From assembly GCF_000010985.1 (NCBI RefSeq), contig NC_013939.1:649501-713500 (forward strand): a stretch of 64,000 nucleotides of DNA, in the 5' to 3' direction. Made by a program: the position numbers and the translations under genes. This document shows positions 37,673 through 58,725 of this stretch, piece after piece (the first letter of the stretch is position 1; each line of letters begins with the position of its first letter). The notes beneath the pieces were generated by a model. It did no database searches. It saw nothing but the letters and a program-made list of their open reading frames with translations, and was not told where the DNA came from. The stretch comes from Deferribacter desulfuricans SSM1 (lineage in GTDB: Bacteria > Chrysiogenota > Deferribacteres > Deferribacterales > Deferribacteraceae).

Positions 37673-37763
37673 GGAGAGGTGGCCGAGTAGGTCGAAGGCG
37701 CTCGCCTGCTAAGCGAGTGAACCCCCAAAAGGGGTTCCGCGGGTTCGAATCCCGCCCTCTCCG
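37673..37763 (+). tRNA. tRNA-Ser, anticodon GCT (integration target)
   Basis: A 91-nt class II tRNA: acceptor GGAGAGG/CCTCTCC, anticodon arm CTCGC-CTGCTAA-GCGAG giving GCT. Its last 20 bases are part of a 21-bp sequence duplicated at 58705-58725, so it is the attachment site of the integrated element that begins here. Confidence 0.95.
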
Positions 37764-37811: not shown

Positions 37812-37833
37812 TGTGATAAAATTGTGATAATCA
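37812..37833. repeat. Arm-type tandem repeats at the left end of the element
   Basis: Two tandem 11-bp units, TGTGATAAAAT and TGTGATAATCA, 48 bp inside attL. They match the three-unit array at 58569-58601 and are candidate integrase arm sites. Confidence 0.6.
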
Positions 37834-38964
37834 CTTAAAAAAACGTTTATTATTTAGTTTGGATTCTTCACCATCATCTATAAAACGGCCATAAACACGA
37901 TAAACCATTTGAACACTTGTATGTCCCAAATTCCTTGCAACTTTTACTGGTGGATCTCCAGCTAAAAGAGCCATCGAAGCATAAGTATGTCGACAATGAT
38001 ACATAATCCTATATTTAATATTCAAAGCTTCCAATGTTGGTTTCCAAACATTTTTTCTAATAGATTCTGCAGTTGTGTAAGCTTTTCCGTATTGAGTATT
38101 AAATATAAACTCTGAATCTTTTACAGCATAGAACTTTTTATGATATTTTAAAGCGTCTATTACATCAGGATGTAACTTTATTTTACGTATTGAGCCAATG
38201 GTTTTTGGGGTGTCAAGTATTCCGTCAGTCATAGCTTCCATAATATAATATGTACCATTATCTAAATTAAGAAATTTCCATTTCATTCCTAGGACTTCTC
38301 CAATTCGCATTCCAGTAAGTATAAGTACTGAAAACATTGCATAGAATCTAGGATAATATTTTTTAATGTGTGATAATATCGCTTCAACCTCATTTGGTGT
38401 AAATGGATCTATATTGCTGGGTGGTATAGTAATTTTTCTTACACGTGATGGCAGATTTACATCAACAAGATTTTTTCTCATTGCAATATCAAAAACTTGA
38501 TTTATACATATTTTAGTATTTTTAATAGTTTTAGGTGAATATCCAAAATCGTATAATTCTTCTATGAAATTATCCAAATCATCCAATGTTACATCTTTAA
38601 TTTTTTTATTCCCTAAAATTGGGATTGTTCTTTGTGCATACTCTTTATATGATTTAATAGTTTTTTTCTTAAATTTCTTTTTGGATATAGTAATCCATTC
38701 CTCACAAAGCTCTGCAATTGTAGGATTATACTCATTATCATTTTGAGGATTTTTCAAGCCTAATTTCACTAGTTTAGTTGATTTAGGAAACCATTTTTCA
38801 TAGTCAAAAGTTCCATCTTGAATTTGCCTTTTAATTTGACTCATCATAATTTCAGCTTCCTCACGATTTCTAGGGGTATCATCAAGATGTAAAGATTCCT
38901 TACATTGCATTCCTTTGTATGTAAAAGAAATCCAAAGCTTTTTACCTCTTTTGAAAACTCCCAT
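37831..38964 (-). CDS. Tyrosine integrase of the element
   Basis: 377 residues. An N-terminal arm-binding domain (about 1-60) and a SAM-like core-binding domain (about 80-180) precede the catalytic domain. Catalytic residues: Arg in LILTGMRIGEVLGMKW, HxxR in MYHCRHTYASMALLAG, His in ARNLGHTS, and the tyrosine nucleophile in MVYRVYGRF. It recombines the tRNA-Ser(GCT) end. It shares its first base with the stop of the xis-like gene upstream, so the two are coupled. Confidence 0.95.
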   Translation of the reverse strand: MGVFKRGKKLWISFTYKGMQCKESLHLDDTPRNREEAEIMMSQIKRQIQDGTFDYEKWFPKSTKLVKLGLKNPQNDNEYNPTIAELCEEWITISKKKFKKKTIKSYKEYAQRTIPILGNKKIKDVTLDDLDNFIEELYDFGYSPKTIKNTKICINQVFDIAMRKNLVDVNLPSRVRKITIPPSNIDPFTPNEVEAILSHIKKYYPRFYAMFSVLILTGMRIGEVLGMKWKFLNLDNGTYYIMEAMTDGILDTPKTIGSIRKIKLHPDVIDALKYHKKFYAVKDSEFIFNTQYGKAYTTAESIRKNVWKPTLEALNIKYRIMYHCRHTYASMALLAGDPPVKVARNLGHTSVQMVYRVYGRFIDDGEESKLNNKRFFK

Positions 38965-39576: not shown

Positions 39577-40878
39577 CTACTCGATATCATATTTTTTTAC
39601 CCAATATCTTGTTGGAAAATGAGAAGGGTGTTGTTTCTTTCTTTTTAGTATATAACTTATAGCTTCTTTGTACCCATCCTCATCAAACTCAAAAACTTTA
39701 CCTTTTCTAAAGGCATCAATTTCGCCTGTTCTAATTAACTTTCTTACATAAGGCATAGATACATTACATGCTTTTGCAACATCACTTGTACGAAAAGTTG
39801 CTTTAATGCTGTAAGCTGTATTATATTTTCTTTTTAAATATATTTTAGCATCTTGATATATCCAATCTCGTATTTTAACTGAATCAACAGGCGAGTAATC
39901 AATTTTACAGAAACTTTTCATCTTTTTGCCAGGATAATATAATGATGTTGGTGTTATCCCTAAAAACCTTTCAATTGTTTTTGCTATTCCATATAAATGC
40001 ATATCATTGCCACATATTGATAAAACTAAACTACCATTATGAAAATACCAACAACCATCTCCATCAATAACACCTCTGATAAAATGCCTGTGTAATTCGT
40101 TATTTTTAATATAAGGGTAATTTGCATAATATGTTTTTCTTTCTCCACAACCAAGGCAGGTTAAATCGTGATAAAGATAGGGACTATAGAAGGTTATAAC
40201 AAAAATATTTTTCCTGTTCCTTTTTGAGCGATCTTCTTCCCTAATCGGATATTTTGATTCCATTTCTGATGCTATATCTTTTACTATTTGTTTATCTACC
40301 AACCCAAGCCTTACATAAAAATTAGTTCCACTTTTACCCAGATTACCATCCGTTAATATTATCCCCGCAATATAAGCTGTTTCTTCATTTATAATACCAT
40401 TCTTGAAGAAAAAATGATTTACTTTGTATTTATTTACAAACTGCGATCTTCTTCTCCCTTTAGGTACATCTGAATAATCGCCAAGCTTAGGTGATGGTTT
40501 AGTAAATTCATAACTTTCAATATCAAACCTGAACTTTTCATATGAAAAGGTTTTCTTATTGGCTAATATGCGGCACTTTGTAGAACAATAGATGTTTTTA
40601 TCATCTTTTTCACGGTGTTTATAGTTTGTGAATTTCGCCCCACAATATTCACAGATATATTCCCTCCTTGCTTCTGAGAGTGTAGTAAAAGGGATTAATG
40701 AGTATTGACGCATCTTTCTGATTGTCCAACCTTCAGACAATCCAACTTTTCTTGCTATATCTGATAATGCTAGTTTGTTTTCAATAATAAACTTCTGGAA
40801 CTTATAGATATTACTATCAAAGTTTTCTTTAATGAAAGTAGCTAATTTATCTTTAGATTTATTTATATTTGATCTCAT
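39577..40878 (-). CDS. Free-standing LAGLIDADG endonuclease with zinc finger and HTH domains
   Basis: 433 residues from the ATG at 40878, set by AAGGAGG; the TTG-started longer frame lacks a site. An N-terminal helix-turn-helix (LALSDIARKVGLSEGWTIRK) and a zinc finger (CEYCGAKF ... CSTKC) precede two LAGLIDADG helices, AYIAGIILTDGNL near 180 and FIRGVIDGDGCWY near 275, with the acidic metal ligands. The C-terminus (about 372-415) has another excisionase-like HTH. It is not in an intron or intein; it stands between xis and a small gene. Confidence 0.82.
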   Translation of the reverse strand: MRSNINKSKDKLATFIKENFDSNIYKFQKFIIENKLALSDIARKVGLSEGWTIRKMRQYSLIPFTTLSEARREYICEYCGAKFTNYKHREKDDKNIYCSTKCRILANKKTFSYEKFRFDIESYEFTKPSPKLGDYSDVPKGRRRSQFVNKYKVNHFFFKNGIINEETAYIAGIILTDGNLGKSGTNFYVRLGLVDKQIVKDIASEMESKYPIREEDRSKRNRKNIFVITFYSPYLYHDLTCLGCGERKTYYANYPYIKNNELHRHFIRGVIDGDGCWYFHNGSLVLSICGNDMHLYGIAKTIERFLGITPTSLYYPGKKMKSFCKIDYSPVDSVKIRDWIYQDAKIYLKRKYNTAYSIKATFRTSDVAKACNVSMPYVRKLIRTGEIDAFRKGKVFEFDEDGYKEAISYILKRKKQHPSHFPTRYWVKKYDIE

Positions 40879-40960
40879 TTTAACCTCCTTATTTCTTGAC
40901 AAAGATGTTAAATTTCATTAGCAATGAATTACTATTGTTATCATTTATATCAAATCTTGG

Positions 40961-41735: not shown

Positions 41736-42164
41736 TTACTTATTGATTTCATCAGGTGATGGCACTTTCCCGTTGTTCAGTTCCCTCCACTTTTTTATGT
41801 TTTTATATTCTTCTTCAGTAACTTTTATATTCTTTTTCCCTTCAACTGTTGCTAAAAAAGCAGGTACATTATATTCCGTTAAATCGGTTCTGTGCATGCG
41901 ATTGAATACCCTGATAAATTTCTTAACAGCATATAGACATTTCTTTCCAGAACTTTTTTTCATTTCACCTTTTCTTACAAGCTTTAGAATATGGTGATAA
42001 AAGCTATTCAACATATTTTGATTCAATTTAGTAATGTCTTTAAGTTTAAATTTTTCTTCCAGGTAAGGGAAGAAATATTTTTTCAAAAACCGTTCGTTTT
42101 GTTTAACAGTACTATTACTGCCAGTGATATCATATTGTCTGGTGAATTGTTCATACAATCCCAT
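41736..42164 (-). CDS. SAM-like domain protein next to the broken recombinase
   Basis: 142 residues from the ATG at 42164 (GGGGAAG site). It looks like a phage-integrase core-binding domain alone (MLNSFYHHILKLVRKGEMK ... CLYAVKKFIRVFNRMH), with no catalytic domain. It directly follows the frameshifted recombinase, so the two may have worked as a pair. Confidence 0.55.
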   Translation of the reverse strand: MGLYEQFTRQYDITGSNSTVKQNERFLKKYFFPYLEEKFKLKDITKLNQNMLNSFYHHILKLVRKGEMKKSSGKKCLYAVKKFIRVFNRMHRTDLTEYNVPAFLATVEGKKNIKVTEEEYKNIKKWRELNNGKVPSPDEINK

Positions 42165-42165
42165 T

Positions 42166-43175
42166 TTACTTCCCCAAATAGTAATTAGTGATATCAATAC
42201 GGTGATGCCCAAGCTCTTCTGAAATTGTCAACCTTGCTTCAATATCTATTTCTTTTGCTTCTTCCAATGTTATTCCATAATAATCAGCCATGACATTCAA
42301 ATATGAGCCATTTAAAAATCCTGATTTCACAGGTGCATCAAACCCAGTTAATTCTTGGTATCTTGTCTGAGCATAATAATGCCTTTCCCCATGAAAATGA
42401 TAATTTGTGCCGTTTTGTTCATTGAAACTTTTTACTACACCATAAGCAAAATTCTGCCATTGTTGAAATTTCATATCATCAGGTATCAATGAACGATTGA
42501 AATCGAACTCTTTCTTAAAATCTCTTGCATAATCTAAAAGTTCATAACCTTTATCATTAAGAATGGGAACCTTTCTTGGATTTCCACCTTTTGTACCTTT
42601 GACAACATCAAGCAGATTATCTTTTTTATGGATACCTTTTAAATCATGTAATGCCGATTCTTTAAATCTCAATCCAAAGGTTCTTTCCATTTCTACTTGA
42701 ATCCTAAGGGCTATAAATCTTATATCACCAGTGGATAGATATTTCTCTGTTAAATAATCAGTAAGTTGATTATGAGTTTGTTCACTTACACTTCTATCGA
42801 TATTGTAGTACCTTGAACCTCTATTTAATCCTTCAGCTTTTGCAGATAGTTTTAAATCATCTCTTCCGTAATGGTCAAATACACGATTAAGGCTTGATAT
42901 AATATTGGTAGCATGGCCTAAGCCAATTTTACCATACCCACTTCACCTCTAAGATGTTCTGCAAAATCTTTCATGTGTTCGCTTGATAGCCTGGTAAGAT
43001 TTTTTATTTCTAAAACCTCTTTAGCATAATTAGCCAGTTTCATTATTGCATAGGCTGTTTTTTTAATAGTCCCTTCATTACCTGATCTTACAACTTCCAT
43101 TGCAAGCCTAAATGCTGCTTGCTTTCTACTTAAATCCTTTTCCCCTACAAAGTTTCTCTTTACTTTAATCTTCAT
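42166..43175 (-). pseudogene. Second tyrosine recombinase, split by a frameshift
   Basis: The frame from 43175 (GGAGGAGG site) runs 85 residues to a TAG at 42918. The next frame over then continues the protein from about 42930 with GKIGLGHATNIISSLNRVF to a stop at 42166, about 335 residues in all. One base lost around 42930 explains it (GEVG-YGKIG restored). The second part has the recombinase marks: Arg in LRFKES, HGERHYYAQTRY and LGHHRIDITNYYLG with the tyrosine. It resembles integrase-domain proteins of conjugative elements and is probably inactive. Confidence 0.75.
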
Positions 43176-43253: not shown

Positions 43254-43282
43254 TTGAATTATTACGTTAAGTGTTATATAGT
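43254..43282 (+). promoter_or_regulatory. Promoter of higBA
   Basis: TTGAAT (43254-43259), 17-bp spacer, TATAGT (43277-43282). The ATG of higB follows after 10 nt, so the message would have a leader of only about 3-4 nt. Confidence 0.55.
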
Positions 43283-43292
43283 AATATGTAAG

Positions 43293-43577
43293 ATGATAAA
43301 AAATTTTAAGGATAAGGAAACGGAAAGACTGTTTAAAACAGGTATCAGTAAAAAGCTTCCATCACATATTATTAAAACTGCTATTAGGAAACTAGATATG
43401 TTAGATGCAGCTTATGAAATAAAAGATTTAGAAATACCTCCAGGAAACAGATTAGAAAGGCTAAAAGGTAATTTAAAAGAATACTATAGTATAAGAATAA
43501 ATGATCAATATCGAATAATTTTTAAATTTGAGCAGGGAAATGCTTATGATGTTCAAATTATAGATTATCATAAATAA
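43293..43577 (+). CDS. higB: HigB/RelE-type toxin
   Basis: 94 residues from ATG 43293 (MIKNFKDKETERLFKTG), the normal HigB start. The family pattern of a RelE-fold mRNA interferase is present: NRLERLKGNLKEYYSIRINDQYRIIFKFE, ending IIDYHK. It cleaves mRNA at ribosomes when not bound by its antitoxin, encoded 15 bp downstream. It is the usual toxin-first order of HigBA. Confidence 0.92.
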   Translation: MIKNFKDKETERLFKTGISKKLPSHIIKTAIRKLDMLDAAYEIKDLEIPPGNRLERLKGNLKEYYSIRINDQYRIIFKFEQGNAYDVQIIDYHK

Positions 43578-43592
43578 CTAGAGAGGTAAAAA

Positions 43593-43892
43593 ATGCCATT
43601 TATATTAAGAAGGATGCCTACACATCCAGGAGAAATACTTAGAGAAGAGTTTATGATTCCTTATGGGATAAATCAGGTTAAACTGGCTAAAGATTTAGGT
43701 GTGACATATAGAACGATTAACGAAATTGTAAATGAGAAAAGATCTATAAGCCCTGAAATGGCATTGAAGTTGGCTAAGTATTTTGGGACAACTCCAGAGT
43801 TTTGGTTGGGTTTGCAAATGAAATATGATTTATACAAAGCCAGCAAGAAGGCTGATATAGATCAGATCACACCTCTTGTACATGGTAATTAA
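43593..43892 (+). CDS. higA: HigA-type antitoxin
   Basis: 99 residues. HigA signature RRMPTHPGEILREEFMIPYGINQVKLA followed by an XRE helix-turn-helix (LGVTYRTINEIVNEKRSISPEMALKLAKYF) and the TTPEFWLGLQ end. It binds HigB and represses the operon. AGAGAGG ribosome site. The pair probably stabilises the element. Confidence 0.94.
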   Translation: MPFILRRMPTHPGEILREEFMIPYGINQVKLAKDLGVTYRTINEIVNEKRSISPEMALKLAKYFGTTPEFWLGLQMKYDLYKASKKADIDQITPLVHGN

Positions 43893-43929
43893 TAACGCAG
43901 GGTAATCACCCTGACAACATAAAATATTT

Positions 43930-44160
43930 CCAGCATTTTTCATGAATGCTTGCCTGAGCCGATAAATACATTTTTAGCGAAGTCCTACGAGTTTTAAGGC
44001 ACCCGTACAGCCCACAGGCAATCTATGTAAACCGGCAAAGCCGGATTATAAGGGGGTAATTTCCGATGATGGAAAAACAGTGAGTGTCGGCACCCTCACT
44101 GTTTTAAAGACGGCAAGACCTGTAAAAACAAGCTTGCAGCCAGTTTTTCCATCATCTAGT
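43930..44160. other. GC-richer structured non-coding block
   Basis: This block is visibly richer in G+C than its surroundings and has no open frame worth naming. It contains a CCGGC-AAA-GCCGG hairpin (44032-44044), a perfect 14-bp pair GATGATGGAAAAAC (44065-44078) / GTTTTTCCATCATC (44143-44156), and a competing 11-bp hairpin AAAACAGTGAG (44074-44084) / CTCACTGTTTT (44095-44105). The two pairings share bases and exclude each other. A structured RNA or an origin/transfer site are both possible. Confidence 0.5.
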
Positions 44161-44220
44161 CCAATTTTCTGTTTTTTCTGTAGAATCAATATTAATAATT
44201 ATCAATGGATTATCTCTCCA

Positions 44221-44432
44221 TAACCACATCATTCACATTGGAAATGTGAACGATGTGGTTATGCCTCCAATCTCTCCTTAATAAAAAATAATAAGATGAT
44301 TTCCATTCATGAATGAATATAAATAAGTTGAAGATTAATTAGTTAATTTACATTTTTTCCGTAAAAGCGGTAAGAAGTTACTGGTAACATGAGGATATTA
44401 TTAAAAAGTGCAAGCACCTTTTTAATAATATC
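44221..44432. repeat. Two large hairpins upstream of the ParR-like gene
   Basis: 44221-44261 folds as TAACCACATC...GATGTGGTTA with one mismatch in about 19 bp. 44394-44408 / 44418-44432 is a perfect 15-bp stem (GATATTATTAAAAAG). Neither has a terminator T-tract. They may be partition or replication sites of the element. The rest of 43893-44588 shows no gene. Confidence 0.5.
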
Positions 44433-44514
44433 TATGTACAATAATTCATTAATTGTAGAAAACTATTCTATCGCTACTTATTATCAATTTATTATCTATA
44501 TATTATCGACTTTA

Positions 44515-44533
44515 ACTGATTTTTATATTGACT
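44515..44533 (+). promoter_or_regulatory. Shared element upstream of the ParR-like gene
   Basis: CTGATTTTTATATTGACT, followed 8 nt later by TATAAT (44541-44546). Fourth copy of the 19-bp motif, here on the plus strand. Confidence 0.4.
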
Positions 44534-44588
44534 TGTGTGGTTATAATAATTGTAATAGGTAGGTTGATAGTTTGTTATGGAGGTGAGT

Positions 44589-44912
44589 ATGAAGAAGAAG
44601 AAATATACTTTAACTATTGATAGTGAATATTATGGAGAGGTTATTAACTTTTTAGAAAATGTTCCCCAACCGTTTAGGGGAATTGTGATAGCTGATATCC
44701 TAAATGAATATATTGAATTAATGGAAAAAGGGATAGTAAAATCTCCACATAAAAAATATTTGAAAGATATAAAAGAGGATAAAAAAGAAGATGATTTAAT
44801 ATCCGATAAAAACCCTAAAAATAATAATGATTCTTTACAATTTGACGAAAAAACAGAAAAAGAAGAAAGTAATCTTTCTTATGATGATATGATGAGTGAA
44901 TTTGATGAATAA
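44589..44912 (+). CDS. ParR-like ribbon-helix-helix protein
   Basis: 107 residues from the ATG at 44589 (GGAGGTGAG site). Residues about 8-45 look like a ribbon-helix-helix DNA-binding fold (YTLTIDSEYYGEVINFLENV ... GIVIADILNEYIEL), as in ParR adaptors; the rest is a charged, probably unstructured tail, as ParR has for binding ParM filaments. It converges on the ParM-like gene instead of lying downstream in the same operon, which is unusual. Its leader resembles that of parM (TAGGTTGAT ... GGAGG). Confidence 0.55.
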   Translation: MKKKKYTLTIDSEYYGEVINFLENVPQPFRGIVIADILNEYIELMEKGIVKSPHKKYLKDIKEDKKEDDLISDKNPKNNNDSLQFDEKTEKEESNLSYDDMMSEFDE

Positions 44913-44934: not shown

Positions 44935-45885
44935 TTACTATTTATCTGATTTTGCATGATGTAGAAAAACCCTCTTGCATTACTAAATTCTGAATAAGCA
45001 GGAATATAAGTGATATTCGAATATCTTTCAGGTAGATAATCTTTTAAATGATAAGCTCCACCACCAGCAACAATGATGATATCAGATTTCTTTATTTTTA
45101 TCATCGTACATACCTATTAAATTTTGAATCACAGTATCAGTGTACCATTTTTTTAGTTTAATAATATCTTCTTTTAATGGGATTTTGTTGCCATATAAGT
45201 TTATACTTTCATCTTCCAGCGCTGAAACAGCTTCATGTTCCGTTAATTCTAGAGCATACTTTGATTGTATTTCTTGCTGTAATTTTACAATCAACATATT
45301 CATCCCTTTTTTAACTAAACCTCTCGAATCAGCTTTTTTAACCTTACCGTTTTGAATAACAATAAATTCGATTGTATTGTAGCCTATATCAACCACAATC
45401 CCATTTTTAACATTGCTTTGATTTGTAGAAAGATAATCAAACAAACATCCAACACCTTGAACTAAGATTTTCACATCAATTGATATTTCAACATCATTGA
45501 CTGTAAAACTCTTTAACCTGTTTGACATTTCATTGATCTTATCATTGGTGTAGTATGAAAGAGGTAAACCCAGAGCAAATACCGCATTTGAATAATCAAT
45601 GTTAAACTTCTCAATAATATAATAAAGGATCAACGGAGAATATTTGTGTAGAAACTCATAACTTGTAGTGACAATAGCGTCAGCTTTTGCAGCATCTCCG
45701 ACAGTATAAAGCTGACCTTCAAAATAAAAATGTTTGTCTTCTTGGTAAAAGTTATCATTGAAATGATTAGATGATGGAATTGGTGCAATTGCGGTAGGGA
45801 ATTTTTCTAGCCGCAAACCACTTCCCTCATTAAAAGCAACCTTTGTACTGCCAAATCCTATGTCGATACTTATAACCTTTCTCAT
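44925..45885 (-). pseudogene. parM: ParM/StbA-like actin ATPase, frameshifted near the C-terminus
   Basis: The frame from 45885 encodes 267 residues with actin-fold phosphate motifs ISIDIGFGSTKVAFNEG (start) and GIVVDIGYNTIEFIVIQNG (near 165). It stops at 45082, but the next frame carries the missing end: SDIIIVAGGGAYHL, the adenosine motif, and FSNARGFFYIMQ, to a stop at 44925. One extra A in the run at 45095-45099 explains the break; without it the protein is about 319 residues, the usual ParM length. It may be a real mutation, slippage-tolerated, or a sequencing error. Confidence 0.8.
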
Positions 45886-53237: not shown

Positions 53238-54515
53238 TTATTTCCTTTCTGTTTTTTTATAAATCCATTCCATTAAAAAACAAATACTAATAATAGCTAT
53301 TGATATTATAACACCAATAAAATTTGATTTGCATTGTTGGTTGATCAAAATTAATATTGCAACCAAGCATAAAATAAAACCTGTTAATGAAATTATTTTA
53401 TTACTGCCTGTTTCTTTAGATAATCTATAACCAACAAAATTGACGGCACTAAAAATTAATAAGAAACCAATGCTTCCAGCTGTAGATATACTTTCTAATT
53501 TGAGAATGTTGACTAAAATAAACGTAGTTAAAGCTGTAATTATTAGTCCTATGGGCTTATTCCAAAGTTTTGAAAGGAAATGGTGTGGCAGTTCATCATC
53601 TTCGGCGATTTCAAAATTTACCCTGCTACCGCCTAATAAAGATGCATTAATGGCTGAAAAGGTGGAAATAAGAGCTGCGATAGTAATAATTTTAAAACCA
53701 ATTGATCCTAACATAGGTTTAGCAGCTTCTGCCAAAACATAATCTTGTGCTGTTGTTATTTCAGAAAAAGGTAATGAGCCTACAGTCACTAAAGCTATTG
53801 TGAAGTAAAGTAATATGACAAAAATTACAGAAAAGTAGTAAGCTTTAGGAATATTTTTTTCAGGATTAATAATATCAGGTACCGCATTCGCTATCAATTC
53901 AAATCCTTCATAGGCGACAAAAATCACCATACCTCCAGCAAATAATTTTAATGGAGATTTCCAGTTAGAAACATTTAACTGGTATACATTAGGATTACCT
54001 ATCAAACCATATGATCCTATGATAATAAATGCAATTAAAATAATTAACTTGATAACTACAGCATACGATTCTATTTTGCCCACAACTACAATACTATAAT
54101 AGTTTATTATGGACGCTAAGATGATAATGGCACTGGCATAAATATGAAAATCAGTAGTTTTGTTGTGTGTTAATTCCAATAAATTGGGTGCGTAAGAACC
54201 AAAGGCCGAAGCATAAAGCGAAAGCATAATTATATAGCTTACCCATAAAAGATTATTGATTGCACCGCTAAAAACCGTTTTACCAAAGCCTTGATTGATA
54301 AATTTTACAGTACCTCCTCTATCGGGATATGTTTTTGAAAGGTTAACATAACTGTACGATGTCAATAATGCTATAATTCCAGCAAATAAAAAAGCTATAG
54401 GTGTCCCCCCTTTTGCTAAAGATACTGCTAGTCCAAGCACAGCAAAAATACCACCACCTACCATCCCTCCAATGCCTATGGAAATAGCTTCTTTCAATCC
54501 TATTTTTCTATTCAT
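53238..54515 (-). CDS. APC-family amino-acid/polyamine permease
   Basis: 425 residues and about 12 helices. The N-terminal GIGGMVGGGIFAVLGLA is the consensus G-rich helix I of the APC superfamily. Substrate cannot be read from sequence. No Shine-Dalgarno sequence is seen before the ATG at 54515. Confidence 0.88.
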   Translation of the reverse strand: MNRKIGLKEAISIGIGGMVGGGIFAVLGLAVSLAKGGTPIAFLFAGIIALLTSYSYVNLSKTYPDRGGTVKFINQGFGKTVFSGAINNLLWVSYIIMLSLYASAFGSYAPNLLELTHNKTTDFHIYASAIIILASIINYYSIVVVGKIESYAVVIKLIILIAFIIIGSYGLIGNPNVYQLNVSNWKSPLKLFAGGMVIFVAYEGFELIANAVPDIINPEKNIPKAYYFSVIFVILLYFTIALVTVGSLPFSEITTAQDYVLAEAAKPMLGSIGFKIITIAALISTFSAINASLLGGSRVNFEIAEDDELPHHFLSKLWNKPIGLIITALTTFILVNILKLESISTAGSIGFLLIFSAVNFVGYRLSKETGSNKIISLTGFILCLVAILILINQQCKSNFIGVIISIAIISICFLMEWIYKKTERK

Positions 54516-58704: not shown

Positions 58705-58725
58705 TTCGAATCCCGCCCTCTCCGT
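58705..58725. repeat. attR: distal attachment core of the integrated element
   Basis: Exact 21-bp copy of 37744-37764. Beyond it the chromosome resumes with the lipoprotein gene. Confidence 0.88.

Follow-up and report, generated by a model that had tools for sequence, protein, structure and literature searches.

We analysed a stretch of 64,000 nucleotides from Deferribacter desulfuricans SSM1 (contig NC_013939.1, positions 649,501 to 713,500), hereafter the window. Plain coordinates count from its first letter, and other loci carry an L number. The window contains an island (37744-58725) whose boundary is based on a tRNA-Ser gene (37673-37763): a 21-bp repeat of the tRNA 3' end bounds it at 37744 and at 58705. 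An integrase gene, recognised by a domain match, occupies 37831-38964. On the minus strand lies a tyrosine recombinase gene of the MpsA type (42166-43175), which is broken in the window into two pieces with stops (ORFs 42166-42690 and 42918-43175, the former holding the PF12835 match); a second copy in the same genome is intact (L002:411-1415). A small ORF with a SAM-like domain follows the recombinase on the same strand (41736-42212), at the position that MpsB would take. Its own match to PF14659 (E 0.0008) is below the cut-off, and its relatives match PF13102 (E 6.4e-7) and PF13495 (E 0.004). A HigBA-like pair (43254-43892, plus strand; PF05015 and PF01381) comes next, and beyond a non-coding block stand a ParR-like gene (44577-44912, plus strand; NF010497 at E 6.6e-6, far below the cut-off) and a gene for an actin-like, ParM-type protein (45082-45885, minus strand; PF17989 ALP_N, E 1e-19). 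Elsewhere inside the island, 39577-40902 encodes a protein with weak LAGLIDADG and helix-turn-helix matches.

The non-coding block had been singled out in a preliminary description as GC-richer, structured and free of open frames. These traits hold: no ORF of at least 60 aa lies in 43893-44576, and the GC content is 0.46 and 0.41 in the two segments matched by the RNA models described below, versus 0.31 and 0.30 in the flanking 1-kb bins. Compared with dinucleotide shuffles, 43893-44180 folds unusually well on either strand, with z -3.66 on the plus strand (1 of 200 shuffles as good) and z -3.84 on the minus strand (0 of 200). Both long pairings proposed from the letters are present. The first joins 44065-44078 to 44143-44156 over 14 bp with 100% complementarity. 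The second, proposed as 11 perfect base pairs, extends to 14 nt at 93% (44074-44087 with 44092-44105). The two were taken to be mutually exclusive, and they do share five bases in the window; in the genome's other copy, however, the corresponding helices abut without overlap, as judged by eye. A switch built of two exclusive pairings is unsupported, since the overlap is not kept there. The limits of the block also needed correction: the RNA core spans approximately 43897-44181, and a conserved palindrome lies further out, at 44219-44263.

The second block copy is 72% identical to that of the window, and each is located 5' of a minus-strand gene for a PF12835 recombinase. When the intact recombinase of the second copy was used as query, relatives were found in 9 of 193 genomes, among them probably members of the family Deferribacteraceae, phylum Deferribacterota. 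In every locus from the six genomes of the order, the block again stands 5' of the recombinase. We built two RNA models, R1 for the 3' domain (8 seeds) and R2 for the 5' domain (6 seeds), with the window and the second copy in neither seed. R1 nevertheless matched these two at E 5.5e-5 and 5.8e-5, and R2 at E 0.012 and 0.055, the window matches lying on the minus strand at 43943-44059 (R1) and 44054-44181 (R2). Over the order, R1 found 12 places in 6 of 45 genomes. As L059 and L060 do not differ over 299 bases, 11 of these places are distinct. Among 384 genomes R1 picked out the same six and no others. R2 missed L025 and reached L026 at only E 0.51. Rfam 15, scanned with the window, L030 and L060, returned no family over the gathering threshold; for the block, whether the threshold was the gathering one or a relaxed one, all matches were chance-like. 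No plasmid or phage sequence matched the block in Blastn. A recombinase scan found none in viral_contigs; in genome_contigs it found none with a single sequence and six loci with an alignment, two of which are perhaps already in our set. An exact-pattern search hit 31 contigs of viral_contigs, none with an R1 match.

The copies share one architecture, and from it we read the block as most likely a minus-strand gene for a small, pseudoknotted RNA of about 285 nt, with its 5' end near 44181 and its 3' end near 43897. Automated folding did not lead to it: the consensus that RNAalifold drew from the first alignment was poor, and its values (-51.2 vs -50.6) did not tell the strands apart, so the helices were derived by hand and then tested. 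From the 5' side, a conserved 9-nt direct repeat, ACAGAAAAA/ACAGAAAA, stands out in the alignments of copies (44165-44181). It is followed by helix P1, the 14-bp stem of the first pairing (5' strand 44143-44156, 3' strand 44065-44078), which encloses P2 (44109-44142, arm limits in the window set by eye). The second pairing forms hairpin P3 (44074-44105), identified by its complementarity. Further towards the 3' end come hairpin P4 (44032-44044), helix P5 (5' strand 44015-44023, 3' strand 43948-43956, limits in the window set by eye) and hairpin P6 (43987-44006, arms 43987-43992 and 44001-44006). P4 and P5 lie in the R1 match, and P1, P2, P4, P5 and P6 are supported by covariation. Two pseudoknots complete the fold: PK1 joins the P3 loop (44087-44091) to the stretch before the P5 3' strand (43958-43962), and PK2 joins P6 loop bases 43997-44000 to 44010-44013, before P6. 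A TCGCTAA motif at 43974-43980 is found in all 12 copies and is invariant in the 10-sequence alignment.

Covariation was measured on two alignments, A8 (11 rows) and A9 (9 rows), whose rows were fitted to the models; this favours the structure, and the pair types nonetheless vary widely. In A8, 20 of 23 pairs are changed on both sides and 89.7% of cells pair; in A9 the figures are 24 of 25 and 89.2%. None of 500 shuffles reached any of five measures in either alignment, and structures slid along the alignment dropped to 29.5-47.6%. P1 has 98.9% of cells paired and nine of its ten modelled pairs changed on both sides. In P2 all 12 modelled pairs are changed on both sides (nine copies), and in P3 the modelled pairs hold in just 54% of cells. 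The pseudoknots were first spotted by eye, and their pairs were afterwards counted in ten copies: all 50 cells of PK1 pair, with three of five pairs changed on both sides, and 38 of 40 cells of PK2 pair. In the pseudoknot test, the cells paired, the cells changed and the score beat all shuffles; the numbers of changed pairs and of pair types were not above them (211/500 and 460/500). The preliminary description had named a regulatory or structural RNA among its candidates and covariance as a check, and the compensatory changes in homologues strongly support that candidate.

Two observations bear on the strand. At modelled pairs read on the minus strand, G-U exceeds A-C by 29 to 5 in A8 and by 21 to 5 in A9, in rows fitted to a minus-strand model; the A8 count covers ten rows, the eleventh (window 53919-54038, E 0.47) being probably a chance match. 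Moreover, the RNA is followed on the minus strand by a hairpin with a GATN loop, which a script located in 11 of 12 copies and inspection by eye in the twelfth (L029). In the window it lies at 43898-43913. The G-U excess and this hairpin indicate that the functional strand is most likely the minus strand, and hence that the RNA is most likely read in the same direction as the recombinase gene. The hairpin resembles a terminator, with a T tail that is clear in about half of the copies and weak in the window, L025, L026, L059 and L060. Taken singly, it is not above shuffles in several copies (of 60 shuffles, 11 were as high for the window, 16 for L024, 22 for L030 and 9 for L032), so the case for it rests on the repeated loop and position.

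On the 5' side, a script found a strong hairpin with a TTCAC/GTGAA core, P0, in 12 of 12 copies, at a distance of 33-52 nt before the ACAGAAAA repeat; in each copy 0 of 60 shuffles was as high. In the window it is the palindrome at 44219-44263. Two more inverted repeats, seen by eye, precede it in six aligned copies from one group of relatives. A promoter-like element of a TTG-type box, 16 bases and a TA-type box, likewise picked by eye, precedes the palindrome, and with it the RNA, in the same six copies. Between the palindrome and the ParR-like gene of the window there is also a perfect 15-bp hairpin (44394-44432), with a similar one seen by eye in L024.

At 10 of the 12 places the RNA stands 5' of, and in the same direction as, a recombinase gene of the PF12835 type that is followed by the SAM-like ORF; at nine of them it directly precedes the recombinase. 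HigBA intervenes in the window copy and in no other recombinase-bearing copy, and in the identical L059 and L060 the recombinase is absent, the RNA leader standing before an AlpA-type gene instead. Nine aligned recombinases have invariant catalytic residues R168, H260, R263, H264 and Y331. Repeats of a tRNA 3' end also bound the islands of L026 (24 bp), L030 and L031 (21 bp each), L059 (60 bp) and L060 (16 bp). In L025 the search matched only the tRNA itself, and in the available stretches of L024, L029 and L032 the bounding repeat was not found; the script used for L060, L024, L025, L029 and L032 excluded L027 and L028. The fuller islands run in the order integrase, excisionase-like gene, SAM-like ORF, recombinase, RNA and cargo. 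The cargo comprises Vsr and a cytosine methylase in L030, KAP NTPases in L031 and L032, a restriction helicase in L029, and HigBA with the ParR- and ParM-like genes in the window. In L024:8786-10066 a transposase-like ORF apparently interrupts, as seen by eye, a ParR-like gene beside the second copy of the RNA. The tRNA-Gly islands of L059 and L060 carry CRISPR arrays (L059:6594-8189, 22 repeats; L060:7914-8912, 14 repeats) and otherwise show an integrase, the AlpA-type gene and the structured RNA. Their 34 spacers had no match at E 0.05 among the loci compared, five loci being excluded.

This arrangement recalls the mobilization module of SGI1, as described in the portions of the literature available to us. 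SGI1 transfer needs MpsA, an atypical relaxase of the tyrosine recombinase type, MpsB and the small RNA sgm-sRNA (PMC9299015, PMC6414798). The catalytic residues of MpsA are R162, H247, R250, H251 and Y319 (PMC9299015), and MpsB is a SAM-4-like protein of 98 aa (PMC6414798 for the length). The published order is promoter (ttgacg-16-taatat), oriT, sgm-sRNA core, hairpin, mpsA, mpsB; the sgm-sRNA core thus lies between mpsA and oriT, with its promoter beyond oriT and its end near a hairpin at the mpsA start (PMC9299015). We made the protein comparison through a gammaproteobacterial locus, L094, rather than through SGI1's own record. The protein encoded at L094:3360-4325 has R162, H247, R250, H251 and Y319, exactly the published residues and numbers of SGI1 MpsA, and the ORF after it is 98 aa long, the published length of MpsB. 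The recombinase is 33% identical to the L094 protein over 296 aa (E 3e-41, a single comparison), and hhalign of the recombinase set against a gammaproteobacterial MpsA-like set gave a probability of 100% (E 3.3e-51, 279 columns). At the level of protein sequence, these alignments show the recombinase to be homologous to MpsA-type proteins.

The two modules share more than the recombinase. In both, an MpsA-type gene is followed by a small SAM-like ORF; an RNA of similar size lies 5' of it in the same direction, with a hairpin end near the mpsA start; inverted repeats stand further 5'; and the whole belongs to an integrative island that also carries genes for an integrase and an excisionase-like protein. 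They come from different phyla. Comparison of the SAM-like ORFs with the 98-aa protein of L094 by hhalign gave no significant similarity (probability 0.8%, E 0.071), and R1, run without filters upstream of the gammaproteobacterial mpsA-like genes of L094, L037 and L039, found nothing credible (best E 2.6). The upstream regions of six Aeromonas loci (L094 left out) are too similar for a covariation test, with 2 of 88 pairs in sense and 1 of 109 pairs in antisense. The likeness seen between the RNA and sgm-sRNA is therefore one of place and direction. The preliminary description came close in proposing an oriT: the RNA occupies the position that the transfer sRNA has in SGI1, and it is the palindrome just 5' that, by analogy, is a candidate for an oriT inverted repeat.

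Two other known systems also come close. PAGEV RNA (RF03037) is a structured RNA found on plasmids. On a Vibrio casei plasmid (L038:1458-1676) it directly follows a small ORF that in turn follows an MpsA-like gene; it thus lies on the other side of the genes and on the opposite strand, and no PAGEV match was found in the window, L030 or L060. TcpM of pCW3 and MobK of pIGRK are relaxases of the tyrosine-recombinase fold with an oriT upstream of the gene; PMC9299015 states that they are not related to MpsA or to each other, and the portions of it available to us mention no RNA for either.

Given its structure, its strand, the usual placement of its gene before those of the recombinase and the SAM-like protein, and the homology of the recombinase to MpsA-type proteins, we infer a function in transfer for the RNA. 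By analogy, the locus is probably the equivalent in Deferribacterota of SGI1's mobilization module, with the RNA as a trans-acting transfer factor and the palindrome as candidate oriT. The transcript would start upstream, pass the palindrome region, fold into the core and end at the GATN hairpin. Just as SGI1 depends on sgm-sRNA, the RNA would then cooperate with the atypical relaxase of MpsA-like type and with the partner of that relaxase, so that a helper conjugation system could transfer the excised island. In this role the RNA, like sgm-sRNA, might hold the relaxosome together, recruit the helper or act in some other way. Two findings temper our confidence slightly: the RNA of the window does not adjoin the recombinase, and the 3' hairpins, taken one at a time, do not exceed chance. 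L059 and L060, which keep the RNA without a recombinase, also count against this reading. The window copy itself probably does not transfer on its own, since its recombinase gene is broken. Regarding a helper, PF19044, a T4SS-type ATPase domain, scores over the cut-off in 17 of the order's 45 genomes, among them that of the window, where the second replicon carries the match; it is no proof of a working transfer system, because it also matches 7 of 14 control genomes. The coupling protein PF02534 was found in two of eight genomes checked, the window's own not being one of the two, and PF03135 was found in none of the eight. Helper-driven transfer is possible in the order, and for the window's genome it is a supposition.

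The same gene order could instead mean that the RNA acts in cis, its 3' hairpin forming an attenuator or a riboswitch-like control of the recombinase operon. At nine recombinase loci, RNA, hairpin, short gap, ribosome-binding site and start codon do follow in sequence, L059 and L060 carry the same leader before the AlpA-type gene, and the pseudoknots and invariant unpaired stretches resemble those of ligand- or protein-binding RNAs. Yet no conserved antiterminator was seen by eye, the hairpin stem varies freely, HigBA separates the RNA from the recombinase in the window, and in SGI1 the sgm-sRNA acts in trans and is not replaced by MpsAB given in trans (PMC9299015, as far as available). We regard such a leader as rather unlikely. 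A primer or copy-control RNA of a plasmid-like island, which the preliminary description had also proposed, is improbable. In its favour, the adjoining ParR- and ParM-like genes of the window suggest an extrachromosomal phase, and the proteins scanned from the window and L024 included none that was recognised as Rep-type. However, no specific support for a replication RNA was obtained, the scans covered some of the ORFs per element, and SGI1 keeps its replicon apart from its sRNA in the portions of PMC8409611 and PMC12217951 available.

Since tyrosine recombinases can use folded single strands, as in integrons, the block might also be a folded single-strand DNA site of the recombinase instead of an RNA, with the direct repeat and the palindrome as possible binding sites. 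We consider this very improbable: G-U is tolerated on one strand, with 50 cells against 10 A-C cells in total (G-T is also a mild wobble in DNA, and the count is not decisive), and the terminator-like end lies on that same strand. A TnpB-type guide RNA, an intron, a CRISPR RNA and a ColE1-like primer were dropped for want of positive evidence.

If the locus is indeed a counterpart of the SGI1 module, an RNA partner may be old and general in MpsA-type relaxases, and their relaxosome a ribonucleoprotein kept from Gammaproteobacteria to Deferribacterota, an extension that we put forward only tentatively. The RNA family would then provide a covariation-supported, pseudoknotted architecture for the RNA partner of an MpsA-type relaxase. 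The portions of the literature that our search could reach mention no such RNA outside SGI1-family elements. Nine gammaproteobacterial plasmids (L037, L038, L095-L100 and L102) bear an MpsA-like recombinase gene, and eight of the nine are typed non-mobilizable; such plasmids may be mobilizable by an MpsA-like route. The finding also points to small islands and plasmids that carry MpsA-like genes and are now typed non-mobilizable, and a distant, structurally well-supported counterpart makes it testable whether tyrosine-recombinase-type relaxases need an RNA.
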